Assembly: GCA_014859095.1 (NCBI GenBank)
Contig: JACUUV010000001.1
Location: 1 to 64,000 of the forward strand
Length of the DNA stretch: 64,000 nt
Origin: Clostridia bacterium
Lineage (GTDB): Bacteria; Bacillota; Clostridia; Peptostreptococcales; Acidaminobacteraceae
Direction of reading: 5' to 3'
Numbering within the stretch: position 1 is the first letter of the stretch; every line of letters starts with the position of its first letter. Shown here one piece after another: positions 10,268 to 64,000 of this stretch. A model generated the notes under the pieces. The model was not told the origin of the DNA. It ran no database searches and saw only the letters and a program-made list of their open reading frames with translations. The translations under genes were made by a program, and so were the position numbers.

Positions 10268-10512
10268 TCAAAAAAATAAAAACGCCTCTTGAAAATCAAG
10301 AGACGAATTAATCCGCGTTACCACTCTTATTGAAAAAGAAACCTTTTTCCACTCGATATCCATAACGGAGACAGCCGTTCAATCAGCGCAGTGGCCAATC
10401 AAAATCTCATGGGTTCTATTCATTGACATGTATTATCGGACTCACACCAACACCGACTCGCTTGAAAGGAACATATCGCCTACTTGCCCACTCATTGATT
10501 TACTATGAATTT
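10268..10512 (-). ncRNA. T-box riboswitch leader of argS
   Basis: Minus-strand leader with the hallmarks of a T-box: AG-bulge/GTGAG elements of Stem I, the T-box sequence AGTGGTAACGCGG (10312-10324 region) and an overlapping terminator hairpin (TCTCTTGA/TCAAGAGG at 10285-10303) followed by T-rich DNA. The predicted specifier codon is AGA (10415-10417), an arginine codon. UGGU in the T-box fits a tRNA with discriminator A. Uncharged tRNA-Arg should stabilise the antiterminator and switch argS on. Confidence 0.9.
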
Positions 10513-18035: not shown

Positions 18036-18063
18036 TAAAAAAGCCTCGGCTATGCCGAGGCTT
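18036..18063 (-). terminator. Terminator of the cold-shock gene
   Basis: Minus strand perfect stem AAGCCTCGGC/GCCGAGGCTT with loop ATA, followed by six T, ten bases past the csp stop. Confidence 0.92.
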
Positions 18064-18072
18064 CAGGTTTGA

Positions 18073-18273
18073 CTATCTGATTGGTGTTACGTTCTCAGCT
18101 TGAGGACCCTTAGGACCTTGTGCGATTTCAAAAGTAACTGCTTCGCCTTCTTCTAAAGACTTGAAGCCATCTTTGTTAATTTGTGAGAAGTGTACGAAAA
18201 CGTCTTTTCCGTCATCACCAGTGATAAAACCAAAACCTTTTTCTGAGTTAAACCATTTTACAGTTCCGTTCAT
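18073..18273 (-). CDS. Cold-shock protein
   Basis: 66 residues, a single cold-shock domain. RNP1 appears as KGFGFITG and RNP2 as VFVHFSQI, the nucleic-acid binding faces. It binds single-stranded RNA/DNA and melts RNA structure at low temperature. TTGGAGGC precedes the ATG. The gene is monocistronic, with its own promoter, a leader of about 140 bases and a strong terminator. Confidence 0.95.
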
Positions 18274-18446
18274 ATTGTGCCTCCAAAATTTAATATTTCC
18301 TTAAAAACCTATTAGAAAAAATATTAACAAAATCTTGGAAACTAAACTCAAAAAAGAATTTTGTTTTCCTAACTTTTTAATTAATTTTTTTTTCCTGTGG
18401 ATCTAAGGTACGTCTTAATAATACACTTTTTCCTTTTTTTTTGCAA
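18274..18446 (-). promoter_or_regulatory. Promoter and long AT-rich 5' leader of the cold-shock gene
   Basis: Minus strand -35 TTGCAA (18441-18446), 17-base spacer, -10 TATTAT (18418-18423). The transcript would have a leader of about 138 bases before the ATG, very rich in A and T. Long leaders are a known feature of csp genes, where they act as thermosensitive translation switches; here that is inference. Confidence 0.6.
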
Positions 18447-25132: not shown

Positions 25133-25372
25133 ATAAAAAAATCCATCCCAGTAAAGGGACGGAGTGTATTCCGCGGTACCACCCAAATTGACTGCTACAG
25201 CAATCCTCTCAGCACCTTAACGCGGCATACGGCACTTCCTACTCGAGTTCAAAAGTGCATCTCCAGAGTGAACTTCAGCGATTTCAAAATAGAAAGCTTA
25301 CACCAGCCACTTTCCTCTCTAAAAAATATCCTACGCTTACTCTCTCTTTCACAGATGTTCGTTATTTCCAAT
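25133..25372 (-). ncRNA. T-box riboswitch leader of pheST
   Basis: Minus-strand leader with the T-box core GGGTGGTACCGCGG (25171-25184), Stem I features including GGTGTAAGC, and a terminator (ACTCCGTCCC with GGGATGGAT and T-run). Predicted specifier TTC at 25270-25272, a phenylalanine codon. UGGU matches discriminator A of tRNA-Phe. Confidence 0.92.
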
Positions 25373-32810: not shown

Positions 32811-33053
32811 AAAAAAACTCTCATCACTAGCATATGCTAGGGACGAGAGTTGCTCGCGGTTCCACCCTAATAGTCCGAATCGGACCACTCGAAAGCCTTA
32901 ACGCGGCAGACGCTGTATTTTCACTGGTTACTCATACAGAGCTAAAAGTCAGTTTTCACACAAACCGTTCATATTCTTCATTTCAGCCAAGTGAAGAACT
33001 CTCTAAATGCTAGAATGTGCTACTTTTCTTTATCATCGCTAATTTTCAATTTA
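32811..33053 (-). ncRNA. T-box riboswitch leader of thrS
   Basis: Minus-strand leader with T-box core AGGGTGGAACCGCG (32855-32868) and a terminator formed by ACTCTCGTC/GATGAGAGT followed by eight T. Predicted specifier ACC at 32926-32928 (threonine). Here the T-box reads UGGA, unlike UGGU in the other three leaders of this window, as required to pair with a tRNA whose discriminator is U, which is the case for Firmicute tRNA-Thr. Confidence 0.9.
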
Positions 33054-47261: not shown

Positions 47262-47506
47262 AAAATCCATTCATCCCCATGAAAGGGACGAATAGATCGC
47301 GTTACCACCCTAATTCCGACACAACAAAAAATGTCAGCACTCATTAAATATAACGGTTATAACCGGATCTGCATACTTAGTTTCAACAGATCATCTCGGA
47401 AGCGACCTTCAACAATCTGCTCTGGACGGGTCTCTCAGCCGGTGAACCCCTCTCTCTTACAGTTACGATTATTTACTCCTCTTCGTCATCAACACCTTAT
47501 AAAATT
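47262..47506 (-). ncRNA. T-box riboswitch leader of valS-folC
   Basis: Minus-strand leader with T-box core AGGGTGGTAACGCG (47298-47311), Stem I (AGAGAGGGG, CCGGCTGAGAG) and a terminator (ATTCGTCCC/GGGGATGAAT then T-run). Predicted specifier GTC at 47404-47406 (valine). UGGU fits discriminator A. Confidence 0.92.
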
Positions 47507-58799: not shown

Positions 58800-60170
58800 A
58801 TGAAACTAGATCAATTTACCAAATGGAAATTATTATATAAAGATGACACGCAATGTTTTTCCAATGCCACGGACAAAGAAACAGAGAATGAAGTGGTTGT
58901 AATCACACATTATCGCCCTGATTCCCTTTCAAGGACTGTAAGACATTTGCTCAATGATCATCTTCATAATGTTCTGGATACAATTGAAGATGAAAACGGA
59001 TTGCACATCGTCCTCAAAAAACTGGGCGGCTTCACTTTGAAAAAATACATGAAACTGAATCAAGTGCCTTATGAGATCAGGGTGCAAATGGTCTATGATT
59101 GGCTGAAAAGTCTGATTGTCTACGAACAATTTCCCGATGCCATCAAAATTCAATTGGTGGATGTGGATCAGATCGCAGTCGTGGATGACCAATTGAAATC
59201 CAGAGAGCTGATCGATTTTTCAAATGAAAAAACTGTGGAACTTACTGAAGTGTTCGGACAAATAGGCATGACCATAGAGAAAGTGCTGTTCGATTCAAAA
59301 GGCTATCATAGTGAGTTTATTGATAATCTGATGATCGGTACCCACTCCATTTTTTCATTCAATTTATTGAGAAAACAATTCAAGGATATTTTTATTTATG
59401 AAAAATCCGCTGCTTTGGAATCTGTCAATTTCGAATACAATATCGTCATCAATGATCTTGAATGCGAAGCGCCTGTATTGAAAGGCATTCCAAAACAGTC
59501 CAAACCTGCAATTAAGGAAGATATTGCTCCTGAAACCGTTGAAGCTTGGGAATTGGATGATGACCCTGTTGCTCCAACGGAAGTTTTACTGGATAAGGAA
59601 ATTGTCGTGAATGAACCTGAGCTGCAAAATGATGAAGAGGAACAAATCGTTTTGGACAGTCCTTCCGATTCGGATGTATATGATGAAGACATACCAGATA
59701 TCCTTCCAAGTGCTTCTTCTTCAAGAAAGCCAAGAGCAATGGATGATGAAGATGAACTTGATTTTGAGATGGACACTTTATTCACCGGAGCATCTCATGA
59801 TCATGATGTGGAGCTGGAGACTAAAAAAAAGTCGCCCGTCGTCCCAATATTGATCGGTATTGCTCTTGTCATTGTTTTATTTTTAGGTGGTAAGGTAATT
59901 TTCGGAAGTGAACCGGTTGAGGCAGAGTTCAGTATAGAACCTCTTATGCAAAGTCGCGTGGCATTTATGAATGAGTCCACCGGTAAAAAGAACATAGATG
60001 AATATCTATGGGAAATATATTTTGAGGATGAGTTTGTTCAGAGTTTCAATGATGAGAATTTATTCCCTATTTTTGAGACTGAAGGAAAATACACAATTAC
60101 CCTCAAGGCAAAAGACAAAGATGGCGACTGGAGCGAACCCTATTCACTCGAATATGATTTTCGAAATTGA
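58800..60170 (+). CDS. Predicted membrane pseudokinase with outer PKD domain
   Basis: 456 residues. Residues 1-215 follow the pattern of a Ser/Thr protein kinase: a hinge-like run (HLHNVLDTIEDENGLHIVLKKLGGFTLKKYM, about 60-90), a helix, and IDFS at the place of DFG; the HRD catalytic loop is not conserved (QLVDVDQIAV), so catalysis is doubtful. A very acidic linker (about 225-340) leads to one membrane helix (about 347-365). The outer C-terminus (about 375-455) has PKD features (YLWEIYFED, EGKYTITLKAKDKDGDWSE). No known name; fold call is by eye. Confidence 0.6.
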   Translation: MKLDQFTKWKLLYKDDTQCFSNATDKETENEVVVITHYRPDSLSRTVRHLLNDHLHNVLDTIEDENGLHIVLKKLGGFTLKKYMKLNQVPYEIRVQMVYDWLKSLIVYEQFPDAIKIQLVDVDQIAVVDDQLKSRELIDFSNEKTVELTEVFGQIGMTIEKVLFDSKGYHSEFIDNLMIGTHSIFSFNLLRKQFKDIFIYEKSAALESVNFEYNIVINDLECEAPVLKGIPKQSKPAIKEDIAPETVEAWELDDDPVAPTEVLLDKEIVVNEPELQNDEEEQIVLDSPSDSDVYDEDIPDILPSASSSRKPRAMDDEDELDFEMDTLFTGASHDHDVELETKKKSPVVPILIGIALVIVLFLGGKVIFGSEPVEAEFSIEPLMQSRVAFMNESTGKKNIDEYLWEIYFEDEFVQSFNDENLFPIFETEGKYTITLKAKDKDGDWSEPYSLEYDFRN

Positions 60171-60276
60171 ACAGACATTATAAAAGTGCATAATGAGAAA
60201 TGAATAACAATGCAACCTTTTTACAAACAAAAAAGTTCCTCTCTAATCCATTATGAGAGGAACTTTTTAACATATA

Positions 60277-60325
60277 AATTCAATTTGTGTTTCTGGTGGA
60301 ATCACCCTTTCTCTTAATTTGGTCA
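60277..60325 (-). repeat. Repeat motif, copy B
   Basis: Copy B of the TGACCA...AAAGGG...CCACCAGAAA motif, with its hairpin at 60277-60303. It resembles copy A (60522-60570) in order, spacing and 17-base loop length, and lies directly before the terminator hairpin. Confidence 0.6.
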
Positions 60326-60521
60326 ATAAAAACCATTTCTAAGAATTCACACAACATCAACAATCCAGCTCTTTATACATAGATACAATAATAAAATCAT
60401 TGCTAACCACAGTTCCGATTACCTATTTCATTTTTTCGGAGTCCTTGTGACCCTAAACATTGGCTGAAACAGTGGTTTACATAAGCAAATCTAATCCATT
60501 GAAATTCAACAACAACCCGTA

Positions 60522-60570
60522 TGATACAACAAAATTCTCTGGCGGTATCACTCCCTTTAAAATATGGTCA
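60522..60570 (-). repeat. Repeat motif, copy A
   Basis: Copy A of the motif, TGACCA, then AAAGGG, then the TGATAC/GTATCA hairpin with loop starting CGCCAGAGA. Direct orientation relative to copy B, 245 bases apart. Confidence 0.6.
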
Positions 60571-60633
60571 GGTTAACTCAACATCACTCATTTCAAACTT
60601 ACTATTCAATTGTGAACTGGTTTTGTTGTAATT

Positions 60634-60642
60634 ATTATATCA
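60634..60642 (-). promoter_or_regulatory. Extended -10 promoter of the candidate RNA
   Basis: Perfect TGATATAAT (TGnTATAAT) on the minus strand, preceded by a run of 15 T (60648-60662 read as A on the plus strand). It points into the gene-free stretch, not to any coding region. Confidence 0.6.
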
Positions 60643-60670
60643 TACTGAAAAAAAAAAAAAAAGCGTTTTA

Positions 60671-61735
60671 TTAAAATAATTTCATATTTTTGTGCATAAT
60701 ATCAAACACGTTGTTGACATAATTATCTATGGTTGTTTCAATGTCTTTTCTGTTGAAAATCTCACCTGGTTCATTAGCCAGCTCCATTAAAGCAAATTTT
60801 GGCGGCAGTCTGAATCCCTTGTTGATGCACAACGCACCTATCAATTGACTTGCGACAACATCATTGCCTGAATTCGCTGAAACGACTATCGCCAGTATAT
60901 ATTTATCATGAAAGCTCATATTGCGGTATAGCGCGGTCAATCTATTGATCACCGCCATTAATTTTGCGGATATGGCATCATTGTAATTGGGGCAAATCCA
61001 AACCACATAGTCTGCTTCCTCAAGACTAGGATACAATGATTCAACCACAAAACCTCCGTAAAAACAGCTCCGGCTCATAGCGTAATAAGTACAGGTCTCA
61101 AAAGTGCAGCCATAACAATCTCTGATTTGTCCTTCTTCAACATGAAGAGTCTTGAAGGATGCATCCGGTCCAAGTTTTTCTGACAGTTTATTCTCAATAC
61201 GTTCCCAAAGCATCAAGGTGTTGGACAATTTTTTGTGCCCTGCGTGTAGCACCAATACTTTTGTTTGTCTCAAATTCAGTGGAGTGTATTCCGCCAATCT
61301 GGTCACCAATGACCTGACAAGTCTCACAGCAATGGTTTCAAGAGGCTCATCAACGGTTTTGGACCATGTATTGAAGTTTTGATAGCCACCTGTGATTTCG
61401 ACCAACGGATGTCCAATCCACTCACATCCCAGTGAATTAGCGACAAAAATCCATTTTTTAGCATAGGACTTCGTGTACAAATCCGAACGGGATAGAACTA
61501 CAATGGCCGCAATACCACCCTCAAAGTACCCCTCACTTGATTTCGATTTCAAAAATGAGCTTGCTGCCGAATTCTCTCCGATTTCATCCAATTCGATTAC
61601 AAACAGCAATCTTTTCCCAATTAATGGGTTCTCTTGATCCTGCAGGACTTTGTTGGTTTCAAATGCTGTTTTTTCTATTGTTTCAAGTATTCTAACATTT
61701 GTGCAACCAAATTGGATTACTTCAATTGTTCCCAT
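60671..61735 (-). CDS. Flavodoxin-fold/NADPH-dependent FMN reductase-like protein with N-terminal domain
   Basis: 354 residues. The second half (about 168-345) looks like an NADPH-dependent FMN reductase/flavodoxin fold: KVLVLHAGHKKLSNTLMLW at the start, then IRDCYGCTFETCTYY, a cysteine motif common in iron-sulfur flavoproteins, and ADYVVWICPNYNDAISAKLM. The first 160 residues form a separate alpha/beta region I cannot name. GGAGG precedes the ATG. The gene overlaps its upstream neighbour by 19 bases, so the pair is coupled. Probably a redox enzyme; substrate unknown. Confidence 0.7.
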   Translation of the reverse strand: MGTIEVIQFGCTNVRILETIEKTAFETNKVLQDQENPLIGKRLLFVIELDEIGENSAASSFLKSKSSEGYFEGGIAAIVVLSRSDLYTKSYAKKWIFVANSLGCEWIGHPLVEITGGYQNFNTWSKTVDEPLETIAVRLVRSLVTRLAEYTPLNLRQTKVLVLHAGHKKLSNTLMLWERIENKLSEKLGPDASFKTLHVEEGQIRDCYGCTFETCTYYAMSRSCFYGGFVVESLYPSLEEADYVVWICPNYNDAISAKLMAVINRLTALYRNMSFHDKYILAIVVSANSGNDVVASQLIGALCINKGFRLPPKFALMELANEPGEIFNRKDIETTIDNYVNNVFDIMHKNMKLF

Positions 61736-62985
61736 GCTTCCTCCAAGTTATGATAGGACTGTTTGATCCGCTCCAGCAAGTCCGGACCTAGCCTCAATTG
61801 CTCATATTCTGTGCCATAATCAGATAGTCTGTTTCTTGTTCCCCAGTAAATACCGCCTACAAAAGTAGCGCTATAATGCCACTGACCACTTAAAGTGGAT
61901 ACGATGGATTGCGCACCTGACGAAAGCGCTGGAGCAACATAAGGTTTGAACCCAAGGGCGCGAACATCCAAATTGGCATGAATGACCTGTTCAGTCAATT
62001 GAAGTGAATATTCGTCATCTTCTGCCTCAATATCAGCAGATACAACCAATGCCGATCCATGAGGCCCAAAAACCCGTCCTTTTTCCTTATACGGAAGGTT
62101 TAGGTGATGTCCATAATACTTTGCCCTTCCGTCCATGACACCAAGTCCATAGCCTCTAATTTGCTCTGGAAACAACCCTCTGTAATCCAGTTCACCAGAA
62201 TCATCTCTATTGGCAGCATCAAAAACAGATAGACAAAGTAAATCGACCGGATCAGAAACGACTGCAAAAATGCCTTTGAAATTTACTTTTCTTGCTTCTT
62301 TAGCGTATAGGGCAATTATTTTTGAGTTTTCGTTGAATTGGATCATGCGGACATCTCCGACCTGCTCTCCTACTTTAGGAACATATTTGGATGCACAAAA
62401 AACGAAAACATCGGCATCGAAAAGTTGGTCATATGATATAGCCTTGACCCTGATATCGGGATTGGTTGTGATTTGATTCAATTCCATTTCCCACCGTGAC
62501 TTTTGATTATCATTCAAATCGAATATTCCTATTTCGCCTATACATTCACCACCAATAAGTTTGAGCCCTATTGACAACATACTTCCAACATCCCCTAAAC
62601 CCAGTAGGTTCACTGTCTTTTTTCTTCTGTGAAAATTGACTTGTTCGTTAAGAAAAGTGATCATGTGGTCCCAAATCTCTTCCATAGGCAAATCATGCCG
62701 ACTGATCAAATAATTGATGTTTAGAGCGATGGTTTTACCTTTTTTTATGAGTTCCCCAATCACTTCATCCTCTGATGGCGCGGTTTCAGTGTATAGCACT
62801 TCCAAGACTTCCATGTCACACTCCGGTCTTTCGAAATGTAAACACGCTTTTGTTGTGCCAAGTGGCGCATGAAATATGATGACATTGTGATCACAGTGTT
62901 CATCAAATGCACAAATGAACTGTTCCAAACCCGGCAATGTCTTGAAACTGATCAGTTGCCAGTCCTCTTTTTTGTATATATACAT
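61717..62985 (-). CDS. Malate/lactate dehydrogenase-like NAD-binding protein
   Basis: 422 residues. After an N-terminal region of about 120 residues comes a Rossmann fold with VNLLGLGDVGSMLSIGLKLIGGE near 127, then VFVFCASKYVPKVG and AVVSDPVDLLCL, which parallel the nucleotide and substrate loops of lactate/malate dehydrogenases. The family's catalytic HGxH is represented at most by FGPHGSALV. It may be a dehydrogenase on an unusual substrate. The ATG at 62985 has AGGTGA upstream; a GTG at 62994 falls inside that site. The gene follows directly on the phosphoribosyltransferase-like gene. Confidence 0.7.
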   Translation of the reverse strand: MYIYKKEDWQLISFKTLPGLEQFICAFDEHCDHNVIIFHAPLGTTKACLHFERPECDMEVLEVLYTETAPSEDEVIGELIKKGKTIALNINYLISRHDLPMEEIWDHMITFLNEQVNFHRRKKTVNLLGLGDVGSMLSIGLKLIGGECIGEIGIFDLNDNQKSRWEMELNQITTNPDIRVKAISYDQLFDADVFVFCASKYVPKVGEQVGDVRMIQFNENSKIIALYAKEARKVNFKGIFAVVSDPVDLLCLSVFDAANRDDSGELDYRGLFPEQIRGYGLGVMDGRAKYYGHHLNLPYKEKGRVFGPHGSALVVSADIEAEDDEYSLQLTEQVIHANLDVRALGFKPYVAPALSSGAQSIVSTLSGQWHYSATFVGGIYWGTRNRLSDYGTEYEQLRLGPDLLERIKQSYHNLEEAWEQLK

Positions 62986-62994
62986 GATTATCAC

Positions 62995-63999
62995 CTATCC
63001 AATATAAAATGATTTGAGTTTCTTCAGTTGTTCAAGATCATCCTTGATGTACTCTGACGGGCGTATATTGTTGGAATAAAATATATTTTTGCCTTTGTCA
63101 GGATATCTTGGAGTATTGAGCACTTCACCCAAACGGTTGATTGTCAACAAACGGTCATTCATTTTTTCATAAACAGTTTCTACGGCAGTCATGATTTCAA
63201 TGGCATTTGTGAGTGCCACTTCAGAAAGGTTGTAAATGGATTCTTTGGAGGCTCCTTCTATATAGGCGGCAGATGAATAAGGTAGTATCAAGTTGACGGA
63301 GTTGATCAGATTGCTGTCAGGTATACTACCGCGCCAAATGGCATCTCCATCAATAAATGGATACAATTTGCTTTCATAAAACCATACTTTGATTTTTGGA
63401 ATGAAATATGCGGCATCGACGTTGAGGTTCATTGACTCGGCAATTTCCTTACCACTGCCCGACATGATGCCTACTATGAATTTTTGAACCTCCACGTGAT
63501 ATTTCTCAAAAAACGGGACCAATGCCTGAAGTCTATACCCTTTGTTCAAAAGGTCATCCACCAGAATGATCGGTTTGTCATAGGACTTGATCATCTTGAT
63601 TTGATTTTCTATATCGAGATAGTATGGATATTCCTTGATTTGATGTGTCGCCAAATCGGTGGAGAAATACTTTTCAGCATGCAGTGTTTTTGTGATCGTA
63701 TTGGGGAGTATCCATTTTTTGAATACAGCTCCAAAAGGTACACACATGGCATCCCCGAGTAATTTTGGAGTTTGAGGCATTGCGGGAACATTGTTTTCTT
63801 CGCATACTTTTTTGATCAATGTCTCGTAAATCATCGAACGGTCAAAACTCAGGACCAAATTACCAGGATATAACTCAGTCATTGCTTTTTGCAATCTGGT
63901 CCTGGATTTTGCCATGACTGCAGACAATTCCGGCAACGTTTTATAAGGATCCTTGAACTGTGAATGAATGTCGAGGTTTAACGTGCAAGGTGATGACAT
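62995..63999 (-). CDS. Phosphoribosyltransferase-like protein, probably cut by the window edge
   Basis: 334 residues visible, but the first ATG is at the very edge, so the gene may continue to the right. The PRPP-binding type I motif is clear as PIILVDDLLNKGYRL near residue 145, and LVLSFDRSMIYETLIKK near 48 fits a larger, non-purine PRTase group known from clostridial cytidyltransferase-related and stress-gene clusters. The substrate base or small molecule is unknown. Its stop codon overlaps the ribosome-binding site of the next gene. Confidence 0.7.
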   Translation of the reverse strand: MSSPCTLNLDIHSQFKDPYKTLPELSAVMAKSRTRLQKAMTELYPGNLVLSFDRSMIYETLIKKVCEENNVPAMPQTPKLLGDAMCVPFGAVFKKWILPNTITKTLHAEKYFSTDLATHQIKEYPYYLDIENQIKMIKSYDKPIILVDDLLNKGYRLQALVPFFEKYHVEVQKFIVGIMSGSGKEIAESMNLNVDAAYFIPKIKVWFYESKLYPFIDGDAIWRGSIPDSNLINSVNLILPYSSAAYIEGASKESIYNLSEVALTNAIEIMTAVETVYEKMNDRLLTINRLGEVLNTPRYPDKGKNIFYSNNIRPSEYIKDDLEQLKKLKSFYIG

Positions 64000-64000
64000 A

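Follow-up and report, generated by a model that had tools for sequence, protein, structure and literature searches.

The question raised by positions 60171-60670 of the window, by which we mean the whole 64,000-nt stretch of DNA analysed here, is whether a stretch without a convincing gene, flanked by convergent genes at 58800-60170 (+) and 60671-61735 (-), encodes an RNA of its own and, if so, of what kind. As the original prediction had it, this gene-free stretch carries an extended -10 promoter (TGATATAAT) and a terminator, which we find as a 14-bp hairpin with a T-tract, both on the minus strand and about 400 nt apart (Table 1). The extended -10 element, TGNTATAAT, is found in 13 of 13 aligned Fusibacter-type loci, and no clear -35 element was seen. 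A simple terminator scan of the stretch gave no match because its rule accepts loops of up to 8 nt only; a repeat search reveals the hairpin, which is probably bidirectional given its symmetric A/T flanks, and homologues from several genera show, by eye, a terminator-like hairpin at the equivalent place. For the stretch, folding predicts a structure of moderate stability (-100.1 kcal/mol, z -2.45), which 2 of 100 shuffles equal.

Table 1. Features of the locus and their positions in the window
Feature	Position	Strand	Remarks
FMN_red-domain gene	60671..61735	-	Immediately upstream of the RNA and co-directional; marker of the locus; Pfam PF03358, E=3.8e-19
-10 box TATAAT	60634..60639	-	Part of extended -10 promoter TGATATAAT
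Predicted RNA, ~400 nt	60226..60627	-	Limits from conserved promoter and terminator
Putative long-range closing helix, 5' arm AAAACCA	60618..60624	-	Complementary to TGGTTTT
Module copy 1, AAAGGGAGTGATACCGCCA	60540..60558	-	About 65-70 nt from 5' end; motif-model E=4.4e-4 for the window's genome
Central conserved block TTAYGTNAACC (UUAYGUNAACC in RNA)	60474..60484	-	Alignment of 13 loci
Covarying hairpin GGGUC-ACAAG-GACUC	60439..60453	-	5 bp, ACAAR-type loop
Putative long-range closing helix, 3' arm TGGTTTT	60329..60335	-	
Module copy 2, AGAAAGGGTGATTCCACCA	60294..60312	-	Upstream of terminator; motif model E=6e-6
Possible 12-codon ORF VIPPETQIEFIC (then stop)	60267..60305	-	Opened by copy 2, GTG start
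Intrinsic terminator hairpin and T-tract	60230..60268	-	14-bp perfect inverted repeat, 100% complementary, 11-nt loop
Promoters of homologous RNAs with near-perfect CodY boxes			Loci L054, L060, L056, L076, L074, L075, L099, L101

The RNA locus is present in 22 of the 41 genomes of the window's family, representing 9 genera; Fusibacter paucivorans DSM 12116 and F. tunisiensis DSM 24436 are among the hosts known by name. A DNA search returned full-length, 89% identical homologues from two genomes of the window's genus (G001, G002) and fragments from others; tracking the FMN_red-like gene through the family exposed divergent homologues in G029, G027, G036, G009, G015, G004 and G024, and a motif model added G010, G028 and G017. 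The RNA lies directly downstream of the FMN_red-like gene in 19 genomes, one gene further within the same cluster in G010 and G028, and elsewhere in G017. Promoter, two copies of a sequence module and a hairpin are retained in four Fusibacter-type genera while the remaining sequence diverged, and modules and promoter occur again in five further genera. Conservation in relatives, which the original prediction had named as a check, is thus seen for promoter, motif and terminator at the same genomic place in many genera. The length of the RNA ranges from ~145 nt (in Anaerovoracaceae) to ~1.2 kb, and parts of it diverge fast in both length and sequence.

Gene order in relatives runs from a PRTase-type gene through an LDH-like and an FMN_red-like gene to the RNA, followed by a convergent TtcA/TilS-like ATPase gene (annotated by eye) and a kinase/PKD-like gene. 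The last of these, at 58800-60170, directly faces the RNA in the window, where relatives keep an intact ttcA-like gene; the window has lost this gene, of which only a 3' remnant seems to persist at 60170-60230, outside the RNA. In some relatives, ttcA follows immediately on the FMN_red-like gene and the RNA is missing from between the two.

Searches against Rfam release 15 gave no match at gathering for the stretch in the window, where the matches at E<=10 were all far under the cut-off, and nothing relevant for the homologous loci, ten searched at E<=1 and five others at gathering. The search itself works, as it recovered four T-box leaders as well as a cspA thermoregulator from the 64-kb window (all on the minus strand, at 10296-10504, 25152-25361, 32836-33045, 47281-47498 and 18036-18373), and our literature search found no paper describing an RNA of such kind. 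In these Rfam searches, the earlier failure to recognise a known RNA consensus is borne out.

Selection on RNA structure is shown by a 5-bp hairpin, absent from the original prediction, with compensatory changes in four of its five pairs and 95.4% of cells paired. Its covariation score of 0.708 was matched by none of 500 shuffles, slid controls reached <=0.39, and it is the one element in which the base-pair covariation among homologues that marks a structured noncoding RNA was found. Equivalents of the putative closing helix (AACCAGTT/AACTGGTT) were identified by eye in G003, G011, G029, G037 and G040, with little covariation. The elements on which the original prediction had rested its case for structure fared differently. 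The TGACCA ahead of the motif is restricted to the window's genome and its two closest relatives (G000-G002), as is full pairing of both hairpins with 17-base loops (TGATAC/GTATCA and GATTC/GAATT). The copy 2 hairpin also pairs at 5/5 positions in two g21 genomes, whose 5' arm GATTC is identical, and the copy 1 hairpin at 5/6 in G003; in the remaining loci only 1-4 of the 5-6 positions pair. With pairing lost beyond the closest relatives, the 'compensatory' difference between the two copies is unsupported as a sign of selection. Inspection of the 89% identical homologues by eye already shows visible degradation of both nested stems, AACCAC/GTGGTT and TCCGA/TCGGA.

The predicted duplication itself is real in that both copies are present; what recurs, one to three times per RNA, is a module defined by its sequence and not a hairpin. 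Its consensus is AAAGG-N(0-3)-UGRNNCCRCCA, also written AAAGG-N(0-3)-NTG-RNN-CCR-CCA, and typically one copy lies near the 5' end and one just ahead of the terminator. Copy 1 sits at +62 to +72 in 13 of 13 Fusibacter-type RNAs, and the motif of copy 2 is present as AAAGGGTGATTCCACCA at 60310-60294; the two copies are the only strong motif-model matches in this genome. With <=2 mismatches allowed, the copy-2 pattern was found in 13 of the 41 family genomes, in 12 of them at this locus, and reversed-pattern controls gave no hit; the exception, in G029 (L019), resembles coding sequence outside the RNA locus. We set aside this and the pattern matches L029, L037, L039 and L102, together with the DNA match L008, as lying in or resembling coding sequence. 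A class-wide search by pattern was essentially negative. Two copies are found in Fusibacter-type loci and also in g8 and g13, two or three in g7, and one is recognised in g2 and g15. The CCRCCA of the module is invariant at the nucleotide level and the bases around the core vary; no stem belonging to the module is conserved, as the hairpins proposed around it fail beyond the closest relatives, and its predicted accessibility is average only.

Taken together, conservation of the locus across genera, the lack of an Rfam match and the covarying hairpin support the prediction that this is an undescribed RNA in which a motif is duplicated. Judged from comparative sequence, the locus is a real and undescribed RNA family, distinct from 6S, from T-boxes and from every Rfam family.

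In sequence, the module looks like an extended Shine-Dalgarno (SD) element and is complementary to the 3' tail of 16S rRNA, of which GGUUGG-type and GGCUGG-type sequences are two common variants. All 42 listed module copies (38 distinct as trimmed), which are homologous and not independent, are predicted to form a duplex along almost the entire final 20 nt of 16S, the tail sequence being the generally known one and not read from these genomes. With the two tail types, duplex energies lie between -17.6 and -26.4 kcal/mol, with a mean of -21.0 against about -8.4 for shuffles and equal means for both tails. Both halves of the module contribute, as shuffling either costs 5-7 kcal/mol, and support for pairing by the CCRCCA end on its own is weak (z -1.2 to -1.5). 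The wobbling purine of UGR lies opposite a tail U and that of CCR opposite U or C depending on tail type, and both positions tolerate A or G. In a window-wide control, 26-nt segments at -18 kcal/mol or stronger make up about 0.3% of the total, and a dozen other sites match the strength of both copies, about 1 per 5-10 kb of strand by chance; the 16S complementarity is therefore suggestive only, and pairing of the module to 16S is predicted only. No second strong complement of the module was found by motif search of the genome, whose readable sequence lacks 16S.

A Firmicute 30S subunit accommodates an extended SD-aSD duplex reaching upstream of CCUCC (PMC13009471). Extended sites of this kind in Firmicutes, such as that of the S. 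aureus aur mRNA (PMC13009471), share with the module a complementarity to the 16S tail beyond CCUCC and a tolerance of bulged positions. Complementarity above that of shuffles is likewise found here, but no start codon lies at the usual distance of roughly 5-12 nt after the SD-like core. Instead, the complement covers or abuts the sole NTG, and one to three repeats stand in an intergenic RNA without a long ORF; the next ATG or GTG (codon 6 in most) is ~14 nt off, and codon 6 is ACA or ACG in g1. The module may bind ribosomes, which we regard as a lead only.

CodY boxes, scored against the published consensus AATTTTCWGAAAATT, overlap the RNA promoter just upstream of the -10 element in 8 genomes of 4 genera (g2, g7, g8, g13), matching at 15 of 15 positions in G027 and G015, 14 in G036, G009 and G004, 13 in G024 and G028, and 12 in G010 (shuffle P from <0.0005 to 0.04). 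CodY itself (HTH_CodY) is encoded in every genome with a box. Promoters of the window's genus and of g9, g17 and g21 score at background level, and the box is absent from Fusibacter-type promoters. On the best reading, the RNA would be nutrient-controlled in that part of its range where CodY boxes occur. The sequences themselves show the conserved RNA locus, its module, its covarying hairpin and these boxes.

We posit, tentatively and at well below even confidence, that the locus represents a family of intergenic RNAs with transcription of their own, found in Fusibacter and its relatives, whose module pairs with the 16S 3' tail and engages ribosomes, under nutrient control in part of its range. 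The repeated module AAAGG(N0-3)UGRNNCCRCCA would pair with the tail and thereby, we infer, draw 30S subunits or ribosomes onto the RNA. Since the sole start-like NTG abuts or sits in the stretch that pairs, and NNN-Pro-Pro opens the short frame, these would be held non-productively or would produce a tiny peptide only. In this way the RNA would serve as a regulator that engages ribosomes and, in genera with CodY boxes, is expressed when nutrients are limiting. Ribosome engagement through the module is the best-supported mechanism, in which we have modest confidence; the invariant CCRCCA, which exceeds the length that an SD needs, counts against it. A more specific version, in which a CodY-controlled RNA captures 30S subunits through repeated antisense pairing, close to full-length, with the final ~20 nt of 16S and serves as a ribosome brake or storage form, appears distinctly improbable.

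A strong rival, if in itself a doubtful one, is that the RNA is a short mRNA or dual-function RNA in which each module starts a real mini-ORF (5-6 codons internally, 12-15 at the 3' copy, reading V/M-x-P-P-E...) that acts through its peptide or through Pro-Pro stalling. The module abuts an NTG-NNN-CCR-CCA frame of 5-15 codons, and ATG, GTG or TTG occupies one fixed place in almost every copy. At the 3' copy this frame stays open for 12, 14 or 15 codons and stops at the terminator base in all Fusibacter-type loci (VIPPETQIEFIC, VRPPEMTIEESI, VSPPEVLETIEENK and others, each followed by a stop), as it does after 11-12 codons in Anaerovoracaceae, and a length of exactly 12 codons recurs in g1, g17, g21, g8 and two Anaerovoracaceae genera. 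A codon-linkage (column-permutation) test of peptide similarity in the NTG frame gave P=0.001 under a shuffle null that disregards lineage, the BLOSUM score of frame 0 exceeds that of the other frames, and L119 and L120 differ by synonymous AGA/CGT arginine codons. Yet the SD-like AAAGGAG lies only 0-1 nt from the start codon, which leaves no working spacing, and codon position 3 shows no excess of differences; the second Pro is encoded by CCA without exception, copy 3 of G027 has GAG instead of NTG, and the 3' frame of g7 reads just MIPPY or MVPPYS before its stop. Internal copies often stop after 5-6 codons. Translation of the mini-ORF would be compatible with ribosome engagement by the module.

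It is unlikely, in our estimate, that the module of a structured regulatory RNA instead has as its partner a protein (or another RNA) with no relation to the ribosome, its SD-likeness being coincidental. The nucleotide invariance of CCRCCA, the UUAYGUNAACC block with its ACAAR hairpin and the equally strong chance complementarity to the 16S tail elsewhere would all fit such a role, but no known binding consensus was recognised, and the module lacks a conserved stem and has variable core flanks. Three other ideas for the module failed on comparison of its copies: a CsrA-type decoy, as the GGA is not retained in Fusibacter copies, and a tRNA minihelix with an RCCA end and a GGUG/CACC hairpin, neither of whose pairings is retained across module copies. 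That the locus is functionless, its promoter- and terminator-like elements chance matches or the whole a relic of the lost ttcA, would agree with the fast divergence of parts of the RNA and with the relatives in which no RNA separates ttcA from the FMN_red-like gene. It is nevertheless very improbable and is largely refuted by the conservation seen in sequence comparison, namely of promoter, both modules and hairpin across the Fusibacter-type genera and of modules and promoter in the five others; the covariation in the hairpin and the position of the ttcA remnant outside the RNA likewise speak against it.

Among known RNAs, OLE, ROOL, GOLLD and the raiA motif are comparable as independently transcribed, structured Firmicutes RNAs of unknown or partly known function; the present RNA differs in having no Rfam match, a length of ~145 nt to ~1.2 kb and only a small covarying domain. 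A stand-alone 6S RNA is expected in the genome; the locus does not match 6S (RF00013), and a bona fide 6S lies elsewhere (G000:C35, E=1.4e-12). T-box leaders carry the sequence AGGGUGGUACCRCG, to which the module, as AAAGGGUGRUNCCRC, bears a short likeness. However, the UGG is not kept in most module copies, the locus has no match to the T-box model (RF00230) although the four T-boxes of the window do, and its downstream flanking gene is convergent and not co-directional.

The locus adds a conserved, undescribed RNA family to a little-studied clostridial group, and the two cultured Fusibacter hosts make the RNA directly testable. Should the modules bind 30S, the RNA would be linked to nutrition and act directly on the tail of 16S; should the mini-ORFs be translated, the family would be one of Pro-Pro micro-ORFs joined to a structured RNA.

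Several variants of the locus were observed. In genus g2 (L074, L075) the RNA is ~1.2 kb long, its middle is filled with tandem repeats (CAAGCAACAC / CAAGCTATACCTGTATTA), and its conserved ends CTCACCGA/TCGGTGAG could pair. Seven of 350 genomes, from two Anaerovoracaceae genera, carry a single-copy RNA of ~145 nt with its own promoter, and in g95 with a terminator; these loci, viewed over a region that reaches ~190 nt upstream and 110 nt downstream of the motif, were found by the module pattern itself and hence are no test of it. Loci L114-L118 (after feoB where read) and L119-L120 of this group have a AATATTCTTGCAA-like promoter element in common. A Lachnospiraceae MAG (L027, 6190-6330) has one motif copy right after a promoter, followed by two looser repeats, GGTACAGTCCACCAGAAAC. 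In the window, positions 60671-64000 hold the family-conserved cluster of PRTase-type, lactate/malate-dehydrogenase-like and FMN_red genes, which looks like an uncharacterised pathway.
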